From Pelosinus fermentans DSM 17108 (GTDB lineage: Bacteria > Bacillota > Negativicutes > DSM-13327), in NCBI RefSeq assembly GCF_000271485.2, contig NZ_AKVN02000001.1, forward strand, positions 2,112,001 to 2,176,000: 64,000 nucleotides of DNA, read 5' to 3'. Numbering within the stretch: the first letter of the stretch is position 1; every line of letters begins with the position of its first letter. A program made the translations under genes and the position numbers. The notes under the pieces were generated by a model. That model was not told the origin of the DNA. It saw only the letters and a program-made list of their open reading frames with translations, and did not search any database. Shown here one piece after another: positions 4,516-64,000 of this stretch.

Positions 4516-6018
4516 ATGTCAATTAATCTTACGACACCAGAAGCTCAAATAAGAGAAAACAGATTGTCTTCTATAACTGGTTACAAAGGCTCTATAAAAG
4601 ATTTGGCAACGCAAGCTGGTGGATGCTCTTTAAAAAGTGGGGAGCGAGGGTTTACGCAAACAACTGCTTGCAGCTTAGGTTGTGCTCAGGGGCAATTAGT
4701 GCTGATTAAAGATGCTGCGGTAGTTGGTCATAGTGCCATTGGATGCGGCTCAGATACGATACAAAGTAATATAAACAATCGCCGCGGTCAATTTTCCAGA
4801 GAGCTGGAATATACCAATATTAATTATATTAATACCAACATGACGGAAGAAGCCACTGTCTTTGGTGGTGCTGCTAAACTGCGAGAAGGTATACGAGAAG
4901 CTTATCGGCGGTTTAACCCTAAAGTAATATTTGTGACAACATCCTGCGTATCCGGGATCATTGGAGAAAATATTAGTGGAATACTGGAAGGATTAGCAGA
5001 AGAAATACCAGTACCCTTAGTTCCTGTTCATTGCGAAGGTTTTCGTTCTAAACTGTGGGCATCAGGGTTTGATGCAGCTTTTCACGCCATTTTGACTTAT
5101 ATTGTTAAACCGGCCGAAAAAAAGAACCCGAATCTGATCAATATTATTAACTTTTCCGGTATTGGCAGAAAAGAGGTTGTCCGATTACTGGGTCGTTTAG
5201 GTTTAGTGCCACAATTTCTCGTTCAATTCACTACTGTGGATCAACTAAGCAAAATATCAGAAGCGGCAGCGACTCTCAGCTTTTGCGGAACTTTAGGAAG
5301 TTATCTAGCCAGCGGTCTGGAAGAACATTTTGGTGTTCCCTACATCAAATCCTTACAACCACATGGAATCGCTGGTATCAATAGCTGGCTAAGAGAATTA
5401 GGGAAGGTACTGGGAAGAGAAGAAGAGGTTGAAAAACTCATTGAGGAAGAAACCGCTGCCATCGCTTCAGAGTTAGAGGAATTAAGGGAGAAGCTGAATG
5501 GTAAGCGAGTGGTCATTGGTATGGGACCAAGCTTTTCCCAAAATTATACGAGACTGTTGCAAGAGCTTGCCTTAGAAGTGGTATGGGCAGCAAGCTGGCA
5601 TTTTGATCAGCGTCATGATTATGGTGAGATTCCGGCTACGATTTTAGATCTTGCTAAAAATGAAAAAGATATTCCTGCTTGCGTCAGTGAGCTTCAAGTT
5701 CATGAAATCAACAATCTACTGAGACAATTAAAACCGGATCTTTTTGTTTGCAGGCATCCTGGCATGGCAATTTGGTCTGCGAAACTAGGAATACCTACTA
5801 TTTTTATTAATGATGAATATCAATCTTTCGGTTACCAAGGTTTAATTAATTTTGGCAATCGCGTTGCGGATACTCTAGCCAATCCAACTTTTGTCCAATA
5901 TCTTGCTAGTAAAATTAAGCTGCCTTATACGAACTGGTGGTTAGAACAAGACGCCTTTACATTTTTGGGTGAGGCGCCTCCGAAGAAGAAAGAAAGAATT
6001 ACTAAGGCGGTGGTGTAG
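4516..6018 (+). CDS. Nitrogenase component 1-like alpha subunit (NifD-like, copy 2)
   Basis: This 500-residue paralogue of the protein at 179 shares the N-terminal RENRLSSITGY signature. Candidate P-cluster cysteines lie at about residues 52/56, 77 (AIGCG) and in TSCVSGIIGE. Cysteine in SFCGTLG matches the cofactor-cysteine position. CRHPG and NDEYQSFGYQG replace the NifD histidine region. The C-terminus is extended by a short lysine-rich tail. Its stop overlaps the GTG start of the beta gene by one base, so the pair is translationally coupled. The substrate cannot be read from sequence. It is a nitrogenase-like reductase subunit, divergent from NifD. Confidence 0.87.
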   Translation: MSINLTTPEAQIRENRLSSITGYKGSIKDLATQAGGCSLKSGERGFTQTTACSLGCAQGQLVLIKDAAVVGHSAIGCGSDTIQSNINNRRGQFSRELEYTNINYINTNMTEEATVFGGAAKLREGIREAYRRFNPKVIFVTTSCVSGIIGENISGILEGLAEEIPVPLVPVHCEGFRSKLWASGFDAAFHAILTYIVKPAEKKNPNLINIINFSGIGRKEVVRLLGRLGLVPQFLVQFTTVDQLSKISEAAATLSFCGTLGSYLASGLEEHFGVPYIKSLQPHGIAGINSWLRELGKVLGREEEVEKLIEEETAAIASELEELREKLNGKRVVIGMGPSFSQNYTRLLQELALEVVWAASWHFDQRHDYGEIPATILDLAKNEKDIPACVSELQVHEINNLLRQLKPDLFVCRHPGMAIWSAKLGIPTIFINDEYQSFGYQGLINFGNRVADTLANPTFVQYLASKIKLPYTNWWLEQDAFTFLGEAPPKKKERITKAVV

Positions 6019-58799: not shown

Positions 58800-58828
58800 T
58801 TGACATTCAGGCGCAGGAGTGGTATTTT
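58800..58828 (+). promoter_or_regulatory. hrcA operon promoter
   Basis: TTGACA (58800-58805) is followed by a 17-bp spacer and TATTTT (58823-58828). Confidence 0.7.
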
Positions 58829-58839
58829 TTTAGTAGGTG

Positions 58840-58866
58840 TTAGCACTCTACAAGGTCGAGTGCTAA
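58840..58866 (+). promoter_or_regulatory. CIRCE operator
   Basis: TTAGCACTC-N9-GAGTGCTAA, a perfect CIRCE inverted repeat, the HrcA binding site, between the promoter and hrcA. The whole heat-shock operon is therefore under HrcA control. Confidence 0.97.
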
Positions 58867-58886: not shown

Positions 58887-59915
58887 ATGCTAGATAAGAG
58901 AAAACGTAGTATTCTTCAAGCGATTGTTGATGATTATATTTCCACCGCGGAGCCTATTGGCTCACGAACTATTGCCCGCAAACATGATTTAGGCGTTAGC
59001 CCTGCAACCATTCGCAATGAAATGGCTGATCTTGAACTGTTGGGTTATATTGAGCAGCTTCATACTTCATCGGGGAGAATTCCTTCTGCAAAAGGGTATC
59101 GCTTTTATGTAGATTCTCTATTATCACCGACCCAAATGTCTGAAAGGGAAATTGCATTAATTAAAAATTGGTATCAGGAGAAAACTCGTCATGTTGAAGA
59201 GGTTTTTCAGGAAACCGCAAAAATATTATCCAAAATAACAAGTAATATTTCATTAGTTTTAGTACCGCAAGTAACTCAATGCGCCTTTAAGTATCTAAAA
59301 TTTCTACCTTTTGATGACTGTCGCACGATTTTGGTTGTCGTGACAGATACAGGATTTGTAGAAAACAAGGTGATTGATATACCAACAGGGCTTTCATTTA
59401 ATGATTTGCAGCGTATTGCAGAACACATTAATAGACGTTTATCAGGATTATCCTTTGAGAATATTGAATTATCCATTCTGCGGGAAATTCAAAATGAAAT
59501 GCTAATTGATGTGGACTTGTTTGAAACTGCTTTAGGGATACTAAAACAGGCATTGGTTGTGGAAAAAAATGAGCGGTTGTATCTTGGTGGCACCACACAA
59601 TTATTAAGTCAGCCAGAATTTAAAAATATCGAAAAAGTAAAATCTTTTTTAGATATGCTGGAAGAAGAACATTTGCTGGCGAATATTTTGCAAAATCAAA
59701 AAAATGATGGTGTTATTGTTACAATTGGCGATGAAAACAAATATAGCGGAATTCAAGACTGCAGTATGGTGCAGGCTACTTATCGCATTGATGGTCAAGT
59801 CGTGGGAACAGTAGCTGTATTAGGTCCGACCAGGATGGATTATGGCAAGGTCATGTCAGTTTTAGAGTTTATGCATAATCATTTAGGAGAAGTACTTAAA
59901 AAGTATAAAATATAG
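58887..59915 (+). CDS. hrcA: Heat-shock repressor HrcA
   Basis: The ATG at 58887 follows AGGAGGTGG (342 residues); the longer frame runs through CIRCE. Winged-helix N-terminus (ILQAIVDDYISTAEPIGSR, SPATIRNEMADLE) and the HrcA dimerisation/GAF-like body are present. It represses its own operon through the CIRCE site. Confidence 0.95.
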   Translation: MLDKRKRSILQAIVDDYISTAEPIGSRTIARKHDLGVSPATIRNEMADLELLGYIEQLHTSSGRIPSAKGYRFYVDSLLSPTQMSEREIALIKNWYQEKTRHVEEVFQETAKILSKITSNISLVLVPQVTQCAFKYLKFLPFDDCRTILVVVTDTGFVENKVIDIPTGLSFNDLQRIAEHINRRLSGLSFENIELSILREIQNEMLIDVDLFETALGILKQALVVEKNERLYLGGTTQLLSQPEFKNIEKVKSFLDMLEEEHLLANILQNQKNDGVIVTIGDENKYSGIQDCSMVQATYRIDGQVVGTVAVLGPTRMDYGKVMSVLEFMHNHLGEVLKKYKI

Positions 59916-59917
59916 AG

Positions 59918-59953
59918 AGGTAATACCTTCCTTCTATAGTAAAGGGTATTACT
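59918..59953 (+). other. Hairpin between hrcA and the chaperonin gene
   Basis: AGGTAATACC pairs with GGGTATTACT around a 16-nt loop. No T tract follows. It may be an mRNA processing or stability site. Confidence 0.45.
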
Positions 59954-60000
59954 GACTCTATTATACATATAATAGAACTGTAATTTGGGAGGAACCAGGG

Positions 60001-61533
60001 ATGAAGCTAAAGCAAGCTAATAGTGGTTCTGAAGTAGATGAAAGGTTAGCGGCACTCATGACAAACGGGAACGCTATCAGAGTGGTTACGTCAGCTGTTG
60101 AGGGAACTATTGGTCCTAAGGGGCTAGATACTATGCTGTTAGGTTCTTCCGGTGAAGTCATAATCACAAATGATGGCGTTACTATTTTAGATAAAATGGA
60201 TGTAGATCATCCGGCAGCCAGAATGCTGATCAATGTTGCCAGAGCTCAGCAAGCCGAAATTGGAGATGGTACAACAACTGCAACTATTATGGCGGGTGGT
60301 CTGGTAGGTGAAGGTGTAAATCAAGTTATAAGGGGTGTGCCCATTGCCCGTGTCATCGAAGGAATCAGACATGGTGTGGCGCTGGCATTAGAGCAGATTA
60401 AGGATCGGGCAAAACATATTTTTGATATACAAGATCCCATTCTACACCGTATTGCTATGATTGCTGGCCGCGAATATAGTGATATTGCTCAATTGGTTAT
60501 TAAGGCCGCAGGACTTATCGGTATTGAAAAATTACGTGAGTCCAGTTTTAAACTGTCAGAGATTATTTTCTCCCAGGAAGGCGCTGAGAATGAGGTCTTT
60601 ATGGGCGTTATCGTTGATAAACAGCGATTAAATCAAGATATGCCTGTAAAGAGTAGTCAAGCAAAAGTATTGGTCATTGATGATGCCTTAGAGCCTGAAG
60701 AAATTGGTGATGAGGCGTTAAGTACAGAAGCTGGCTTTAAGCGGTATCTGGAATTGCAAAATGAGTTCAAGACAAATGTACATAAGATTGTAGAACTTGG
60801 TGTTAAGGTAGTATTGGTAGATCGGGGTGTCCATAATAGTGCAGAAGAAATACTGACGGATGCCGGTATTATGGTAATTCAGCGAGTGGTGCCAGAGGAA
60901 CTTCGCCGTGCCGCGGATCATGTAGGAGCGCGTATGATTAAACGCACAGGTCTTAAGAAAGATATTACGAACATTGCTAGTTCTTTGGGTTTGGCGAAGA
61001 ACGTGTATGAAGATGAAAAATTGAAGCATATTCGTATGTTGGGCGGTGCTGGTAAGCCGATGGCTACCATTTTAGTGGGGGCTGCTACCAAAGAAGTGGT
61101 TGGTGAACGGCAGCGTATTGCCAAAGATGCAGCCTCTAGTGTGCAAGCTGCTGTTAAAGGTGGTTATGTGCCTGGCGGCGGGTCTATTGAAATTGCTATT
61201 AGCCGTGACATTGCTAAGACTAGGGATGCAGTTAAAGGTATGGCGGCTTATGGGGTAGATTGTGTAATACATGCATTACGCAGACCGTTAGCACAAATTG
61301 TAGAAAATGCTGGCTATAATCCTCTGGAGAAGGTAGAAGATGTCATTGCAGCCCATGCCAATCAAAATAAAGATTCTTTAGGCATTGATTGCGATACTGG
61401 TGAAGTGATTGATATGATGACTCTTGGCGTAGTGGATCCTACAACAGTGAAATTACATGCCGTGAAGGCGGCGGGAGAAGTTGCTATTGCTATTTTACGC
61501 ATTGATACGATTATTAAGAAAAAAGAAGAGTAG
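60001..61533 (+). CDS. Group III (archaeal-like) chaperonin
   Basis: This 510-residue protein resembles thermosome/CCT subunits and not GroEL. VTSAVEGTIGPKGLDTMLLG and IITNDGVTILDKMDVDHPAA are near the N-terminus. AEIGDGTTTATIMAGGL carries the nucleotide-site GDGTT. The C-terminal GGGSIEIAISRDIA matches group II/III. Bacterial group III chaperonins are known from Carboxydothermus and some other Firmicutes, where they also lie in the dnaK operon. They fold proteins without a GroES lid. Here it is placed between hrcA and grpE under CIRCE control. Confidence 0.93.
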   Translation: MKLKQANSGSEVDERLAALMTNGNAIRVVTSAVEGTIGPKGLDTMLLGSSGEVIITNDGVTILDKMDVDHPAARMLINVARAQQAEIGDGTTTATIMAGGLVGEGVNQVIRGVPIARVIEGIRHGVALALEQIKDRAKHIFDIQDPILHRIAMIAGREYSDIAQLVIKAAGLIGIEKLRESSFKLSEIIFSQEGAENEVFMGVIVDKQRLNQDMPVKSSQAKVLVIDDALEPEEIGDEALSTEAGFKRYLELQNEFKTNVHKIVELGVKVVLVDRGVHNSAEEILTDAGIMVIQRVVPEELRRAADHVGARMIKRTGLKKDITNIASSLGLAKNVYEDEKLKHIRMLGGAGKPMATILVGAATKEVVGERQRIAKDAASSVQAAVKGGYVPGGGSIEIAISRDIAKTRDAVKGMAAYGVDCVIHALRRPLAQIVENAGYNPLEKVEDVIAAHANQNKDSLGIDCDTGEVIDMMTLGVVDPTTVKLHAVKAAGEVAIAILRIDTIIKKKEE

Positions 61534-61590
61534 CATAAGGCCGCTGAATTTGCAGCAGAAGTTCGTATATTTTAAGATGGGGTGATTTAT

Positions 61591-62139
61591 TTGAACGAAA
61601 CAAAAGAAGAAGTACAAGAGATAATTGAGGATCGATGTGTTGCACCTGATGAAACAATAGAAGTTTTAGATGAGATAGAAACTAAAATGCAGACGGAACT
61701 TGCAGAAAAAGAGCGTCTGTTAGAAGAGAGTAATGATCGCTATAAACGATTGCAGGCGGATTTTGATAATTTTCGAAGACGTACTCGTCAGGAAAAAGAA
61801 GAGCTATCAAATATCGTAGCACAAAATCTTATTTTAGAATTACTGCCTGTTATTGATAACTTTGAGAGAGCCTTATGCAGTGTTGCTACTCAGGATGCGA
61901 ATAAAATGCTGTCAGGAGTAGAAATGATTTATCGTCAATTAATGCAGGGGTTGGAAAAAAATGGACTGGTGGCTGTGGAGGCAGTTGGCAAAACCTTTAA
62001 CCCTCAAGAGCATGAAGCTGTAATGAGAGTGGAGGATGCTGATCAGCCTGACGGTATAATTGTAGAAGAGCTGCAAAAAGGATATTCCGTAAAAGGTAAG
62101 GTTATTAGACCCAGTATGGTTAAAGTCGTAAGTAATTAG
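61591..62139 (+). CDS. grpE: GrpE nucleotide-exchange factor
   Basis: The start is TTG at 61591, spaced correctly from GGGGTGA; the GTG at 61582 lies within that site. 182 residues: an acidic N-terminus, a long coiled coil (ERLLEESNDRYKRLQADFDN) and the C-terminal beta domain (NPQEHEAVMRVE). It releases ADP from DnaK. Confidence 0.93.
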   Translation: MNETKEEVQEIIEDRCVAPDETIEVLDEIETKMQTELAEKERLLEESNDRYKRLQADFDNFRRRTRQEKEELSNIVAQNLILELLPVIDNFERALCSVATQDANKMLSGVEMIYRQLMQGLEKNGLVAVEAVGKTFNPQEHEAVMRVEDADQPDGIIVEELQKGYSVKGKVIRPSMVKVVSN

Positions 62140-62201: not shown

Positions 62202-64000
62202 ATGGCAAAAGTAATTGGTATAGATCTTGGTACTACAAATTCATGTGTGGCAGTAATGGAAGGTGGAGAGCCGGTTGTTATTGCAAATGCTGAAGGAAAC
62301 AGAATTACTCCTTCCGTAGTAGGTTTTTCTAAAAATGATGAGCGTTTGGTTGGTCAATTGGCAAAGCGCCAAGCTGTGTCCAATCCTGAGCGTACGATTA
62401 GTTCCATTAAAAGACATATGGGTACTGATCATAAAGTGAAAATTGATGATAAGACTTATACTCCTCAAGAAATTTCTGCAATGATTTTGCAAAAATTAAA
62501 AACAGATGCAGAAGCTTATTTGGGTCAAACTGTTACGCAAGCTGTTATTACTGTACCTGCTTATTATAATGATAGTCAACGTCAAGCAACAAAAGATGCT
62601 GGAACCATTGCAGGCTTAGAAGTACTTCGTATTATCAATGAACCAACAGCTGCAGCTTTAGCTTATGGTATTGATAAAGGCAACGATCATACAGTATTGG
62701 TTTTTGACTTGGGTGGTGGTACTTTTGACGTATCGATCTTAGAACTTGGCGAAGGTGTGTTTGAGGTAAAGGCTACCAATGGTAATAATCGTTTAGGCGG
62801 AGATGATTTCGATGAACGTGTTATGAAATGGTTAGTTGCAGAGTTCAAAAAAGAAAATGGTATTGATTTGTCAAAAGATCGTATGGCAGAACAACGCTTG
62901 CGCGAAGCTGCTGAAAAAGCAAAAATTGAACTTTCTGGTGTATTGACAACTAATATTAATTTACCATTTATTACTGCGGATCAAACTGGTCCTAAACATT
63001 TAGAAGTGAACTTAACAAGAGCTAAGTTTGATGAATTAACTGCTGATTTGGTTGAATCTACTATGGGGCCAACTCGTCAGGCAATGAGCGATGCGGGTTT
63101 GTCACCTAAGGATATTGAAAAAGTAATTTTGGTGGGTGGTTCTACTCGTATTCCTGCAGTGCAAGAAGCTATCAAAGGATTCCTGGGCAAAGAACCGCAT
63201 CGTGGTGTAAATCCTGATGAGTGTGTAGCGGTAGGTGCTGCGATTCAAGCTGGTGTATTGGTAGGAGAAGTTAAAGATGTTCTTTTACTTGATGTAACTC
63301 CATTATCATTGGGAATTGAAACATTAGGTGGAGTATACACTAAAATTATTGAACGTAATACTACTATCCCTACATCAAAAAGCCAAGTGTTCTCTACTGC
63401 GGCTGATAATCAACCATCTGTAGATATTCATGTTCTGCAAGGTGAAAGAGAAATAGCGGCTTATAATAAAACATTAGGACGTTTTGAATTAAAAGACATT
63501 CCACCTGCACAACGTGGCGTACCTCGTATTGAAGTTTCCTTTGACATTGATGCTAACGGCATTGTTCATGTATCAGCGAAAGATTTGGGCACTGGTAAGG
63601 AACAAAAAATTACCATCACTTCATCCGGCGGTATGAGCAAAGATGATATTGAACGTATGGTAAAAGAAGCAGAAGCACATGCAGCGGAAGATAAGGCTCG
63701 TAAGGACGAAGTAGAAGTTCGTAACAATGCTGATTCTTTGGTATATCAAGCTGAAAAGACAATCAAAGACATGGGTGATAAAGTCGAAGATAAGGATTTG
63801 CTTGAAAAAGTACAAAAAGCTGCTGACGCATTAAAAGAAAGCCTCAACGGTACTGATACCGAAAAGATTAAAGCAGATACAGAAGAATTAACAAAGCCAT
63901 TGTATGAAATGACATCTGCAGTCTATAATAAAGAGCAAGAGGCTACTGCTGAGCAAGCGCCTGGAGCAGGCACTGAAGAAAAAGTGGTTGATGCTGAGTA
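62202..64000 (+). CDS. dnaK: DnaK (Hsp70), cut by the window end
   Basis: ATG after AAGGAGG. The sequence starts [20 protein letters not shown]. ATPase motifs ([25 protein letters not shown]) and the substrate domain follow. About 599 codons are present, to VVDAE plus the first two bases TA of the next codon. Family ends usually read VVDAEY and continue a few residues, so TA is probably tyrosine and not a stop. Confidence 0.97.

Follow-up and report, generated by a model that had tools for sequence, protein, structure and literature searches.

A group III chaperonin gene in the CIRCE-led dnaK operon of Pelosinus fermentans

Gene order and control region of the locus

The analysed window comprises 64,000 nucleotides of Pelosinus fermentans DSM 17108 (contig NZ_AKVN02000001.1, positions 2,112,001 to 2,176,000), whose 5.03 Mb genome is contained in two contigs. 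The chaperonin gene, designated here cpnIII, occupies positions 60001–61533 of the forward strand, starts with ATG and encodes 510 amino acids without internal stop codons; residues 30–508 match the Pfam family Cpn60_TCP1 (6.5e-108). As was proposed in the original prediction, it is located between hrcA and grpE. The gene of the heat-inducible transcription repressor HrcA (58887–59915; TIGR00331, 341.8 bits with a cut-off of 197.2) lies directly upstream, and those of the nucleotide exchange factor GrpE (61591–62139; Pfam GrpE, 3.3e-48) and of DnaK (Hsp70; 62202–64000) directly downstream, all on the forward strand. The start codon of grpE is TTG, with GTG at 61582 as a possible alternative. 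The dnaK gene runs to the end of the window with its stop codon at the border and is followed outside it by dnaJ and then by reading frames read as prmA-, rsmE- and mtaB-like, while lepA-like and hemW genes are found upstream of the hrcA operon. The Bacillus subtilis-type operon has the order hrcA-grpE-dnaK-dnaJ and a CIRCE operator; the Pelosinus operon shares both the order and the operator and differs by cpnIII between hrcA and grpE, i.e. it is the classical Firmicutes arrangement plus one extra gene. The best loci among named genomes belong to Pelosinus, that of P. fermentans JBW45 being 98% identical.

The CIRCE operator at 58840–58866 (forward strand) is a perfect inverted repeat, TTAGCACTC-N9-GAGTGCTAA, with 0 mismatches, so the predicted position of the gene within a CIRCE-led dnaK operon holds as well. 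The chance expectation for such an element in shuffled sequences is 0 even if up to 3 mismatches are allowed. The locus thus bears both marks of membership in the HrcA/CIRCE regulon, a CIRCE ahead of the genes and an hrcA gene among them. The consensus scan also gave a sigma-A-type promoter candidate at 58800–58828 of the forward strand (TTGACA-17-TATTTT with TG before the -10 box, 10 of 12 positions). The scan as a whole returned 18 hits with 19 expected by chance, and the candidate is plausible because it is situated 12 nt before CIRCE. Between CIRCE and cpnIII no terminator-like site was found on the forward strand. Together with the position of the promoter candidate this makes co-transcription of hrcA, cpnIII, grpE and dnaK likely, and cpnIII should, as we strongly infer, be heat-inducible through HrcA and CIRCE.

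The spacer between hrcA and cpnIII is 85 nt long and carries two repeats within 59918–59981 (forward strand): an 8-bp inverted repeat (59920–59927/59945–59952) and a 9-bp palindrome (59957–59965/59968–59976), TCTATTATA-CA-TATAATAGA. The two repeats and the leader are conserved in Pelosinus, the repeats partly in a sister genus as well. Elsewhere in the genome the palindrome does not occur at 0 mismatches, and the single site with 2 mismatches corresponds to the control level; its uniqueness speaks against an operator with other targets, which was rejected. A spacer RNA was discarded too, since the Rfam search of the spacer gave nothing above threshold and no compensatory or covarying pairs were supported. 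One possibility is that the palindrome and leader form an mRNA-processing or stability element. Their conservation in Pelosinus and their uniqueness in the genome could also suggest that cpnIII is driven mainly by its own promoter or leader in the spacer, with read-through from the CIRCE promoter being minor. This appears improbable to us: the spacer lacks a good -35 box combined with a TATAAT -10 box and offers only a site matching 9 of 12 positions, which is no better than chance. Outside Pelosinus the spacer is short in most relatives, and supported compensatory pairs are absent.

Assignment of cpnIII to the group III chaperonins

In a sequence search of the PDB the best natural solved-structure match of cpnIII is Ch-CPN (5x9u/5x9v), which is the group III chaperonin from Carboxydothermus hydrogenoformans; it scores 455.8 bits, compared with 231.6 bits for the top archaeal thermosome. 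Unlike the host of Ch-CPN, Pelosinus is a Negativicute and not an extreme thermophile; Thermosinus carboxydivorans is also a Negativicute. The two chaperonins are about 45% identical over the full length and share the predicted fold, the short loop, the lid and the catalytic residues, as well as location in the dnaK operon (PMC5635000). The closest PDB sequence overall is 9rwq (652.9 bits), which is a reconstructed ancestral group III chaperonin rather than a natural protein. The sequence table calls it 'Ancestral Group II' and the fold search ACIII; according to its paper 9RWQ is ACIII, and the best natural hit for ACIII reported there comes from T. carboxydivorans (PMC12696368).

In the IQ-TREE phylogeny (LG+C20) group III forms a single clade with support of 97/90 which holds both the window cpnIII and Ch-CPN, and groups I and II likewise form one clade each. 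Since the root of this tree is arbitrary and the branches of groups I and II are long, it is silent on which group is the oldest. The nucleotide-sensing loop of cpnIII is six residues shorter than in group II; in the alignment (residues 145–200) this deletion is present in the group III rows and not in the archaeal ones. Asp58, Arg157 and Asp376 of cpnIII correspond to the catalytic Asp56, Arg155 and Asp373 of Ch-CPN, and Leu240, Phe246, Tyr249 and Phe256 to its hydrophobic lid residues Leu237, Phe243, Tyr246 and Phe253; each of these positions is at least 90% conserved among 52 proteins. The short loop and the catalytic and lid residues were described as group III traits by An et al. 2017 (PMC5635000). 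The AlphaFold monomer model of cpnIII (pLDDT 91.1) has 5x9v as its best PDB fold match (Foldseek 9.6e-49; Z 46.0, TM 0.90, 2.4 Å over 492 residues). The predicted group III identity is therefore borne out by tree, sequence, predicted fold and diagnostic residues, and cpnIII is an intact, well preserved but ordinary member of the published bacterial family.

Two other origins were weighed. The protein could be a divergent GroEL paralogue (group I) which owes its archaeal look to fast evolution: it shares the Cpn60 family with GroEL and gives weak matches to GroEL models, and several GroEL copies are common in bacteria. We give this reading practically no credence. The curated GroEL model TIGR02348 is not reached (145.8 bits, cut-off 582.1), and the groups are cleanly apart in the tree, where cpnIII stands with group III and not among GroEL proteins. 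GroEL depends on GroES, possesses a GGM tail and lacks a built-in lid, whereas cpnIII has the lid and no such tail; the tree and the inserted lid refute a placement with GroEL. The search for groEL in the genome revealed a true one (C1:3292828–3294327), which is accompanied by groES and, like the cpnIII operon, is under the control of a perfect CIRCE of its own. Alternatively, Pelosinus might have recently gained a group II thermosome gene from archaea. The nearest named models are indeed those of the archaeal thermosome, which (e.g. Mm-Cpn, 3kfb) shares the overall fold and the built-in lid with cpnIII at about 30% identity; it has a longer loop and a different lid and belongs to a separate clade. 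This origin is hardly more credible than the former one, as the score with the thermosome model TIGR02339 is below the cut-off (296.9 and 671.1 bits, respectively) and relatives in Negativicutes and other Firmicutes that share the operon position are 62–77% identical. Recent archaeal transfer is refuted by the identity of about 31% to archaeal thermosomes and by the agreement of the cpnIII tree with that of hrcA; whether an ancient transfer took place at the base of group III continues to be discussed (PMC5635000, PMC12696368). Carriage of group III by viruses or plasmids was rejected: a group III pattern search of viral contigs gave no match, and plasmid and phage matches to cpnIII were all below 60% identity, those listed being thermosomes or GroEL (26–32%).

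Distribution and inheritance of the family

According to An et al. 2017, all but one of 195 group III members are found within the dnaK operon (PMC5635000). Among the 80 related loci collected here, hrcA lies directly upstream of cpnIII in 78 (one of the exceptions is cut by a contig end) and grpE directly downstream in 73 (3 of the remaining 7 are cut). A perfect CIRCE is present in 64 of the 76 loci with enough upstream DNA, and 4 more have one or two mismatches. The CIRCE link is hence what this family normally shows in Firmicutes and not a speciality of the Pelosinus genome. Eight loci (L061, L066, L068, L069, L071, L075, L079 and L080), all from Armatimonadota/Zipacnadia-type MAGs with hrcA-cpnIII, have no CIRCE, which means that control by this operator does not extend to every member of the family. 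As the gene pair is kept there while a recognisable CIRCE is absent upstream, HrcA in these organisms may use another operator.

The original prediction regarded group III chaperonins as rare in bacteria and described from a few Firmicutes; neither statement agrees with the counts. In an even draw of 398 genomes from the phylum, 124 carry the gene (31%; 85 of 271 genera). At class level it was found in 60 of 380, every one of the 8 Pelosinus genomes tested has it, and it also occurs in MAGs of Armatimonadota and Zipacnadia. The cpnIII and hrcA trees share 20 supported splits with 0 conflicts, and their distances correlate with r = 0.91 (55 loci); the dnaK tree has a few conflicts with each of them. 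The absence of supported conflict indicates that cpnIII and hrcA were inherited together; most simply, transmission as a unit has long been vertical, with losses elsewhere in the Negativicutes. Two MAGs named Deltaproteobacteria and Armatimonadetes (L046 and L053) have their cpnIII deep inside Desulfotomaculum-type Firmicutes in the tree and are probably misbinned or misnamed.

In four loci (L043, L059, L077 and L081) cpnIII is kept without an intact grpE-dnaK behind it and DnaK is encoded elsewhere in the genome, so local dnaK is not essential. In L059 and L081, one of which is a Symbiobacterium MAG, hrcA-cpnIII is followed by dnaJ without grpE-dnaK. In L043 (5162–5452) and L077 (about 5094–5390) the place of grpE-dnaK directly behind cpnIII is taken by a lone reading frame of ~100 amino acids. 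These frames match only DnaK subdomain IIB (residues 199–281 of the window DnaK; Pfam 26.6–32.8 bits). In L043 dnaJ follows directly, and both genomes encode a full-length DnaK elsewhere. A frameshift in L077 and an apparent insertion in L073, which is a run of N, are assembly matters.

Proposed function beside GroEL-GroES

Besides those of the hrcA and groESL operons, a third perfect CIRCE is located at C1:3550117–3550143 (L138, 1518–1544), about 46 nt before htpG. Exactly three perfect CIRCEs were counted in every Pelosinus genome tested. This number, along with the htpG operator, suggests that HrcA may control Hsp90 in the genus.

The best explanation of the locus, of which we are highly confident, is an HrcA/CIRCE-controlled group III chaperonin in an hrcA-cpnIII-grpE-dnaK-dnaJ operon, which most likely works beside GroEL-GroES. 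A promoter overlapping CIRCE upstream of hrcA would give rise to a transcript of all five genes, whose expression would be kept low by HrcA bound to CIRCE. Upon heat or accumulation of unfolded protein HrcA would become inactive, and the chaperonin and the DnaK machine would rise together. By analogy with the C. hydrogenoformans protein, cpnIII probably forms a double 8-fold ring with ATPase activity, i.e. an ATP-driven folding chamber with a lid built into each subunit, and would fold its clients independently of GroES. Clients released by DnaK would most likely pass to cpnIII; the basis for this hand-over is the gene order, and a DnaK relay proposed in the literature has the same basis (PMC5635000, PMC5220055).

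A stricter form of this idea makes cpnIII the downstream half of a fixed, HrcA-coregulated relay from Hsp70 to chaperonin, in which DnaK delivers directly to the cpnIII lid and replaces prefoldin. No prefoldin match was found in the genome by a search that was positive in four archaeal controls. The variant operons neither prove nor exclude a DnaK relay. We consider the fixed relay rather unlikely; if it is true, exceptions such as the operons with a lone subdomain IIB are informative relay variants.

The single gene adds little by itself, since the literature already covers the family together with its structure and its place in the operon. What changes is the notion of rarity: about a third of the sampled phylum genomes have a group III chaperonin, co-inherited with hrcA. 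The role of such a chaperonin beside GroEL has been called uncharacterised (PMC5220055). Cultivable Pelosinus, which has cpnIII alongside CIRCE-controlled groESL and htpG, is a candidate host in which this role could be studied.
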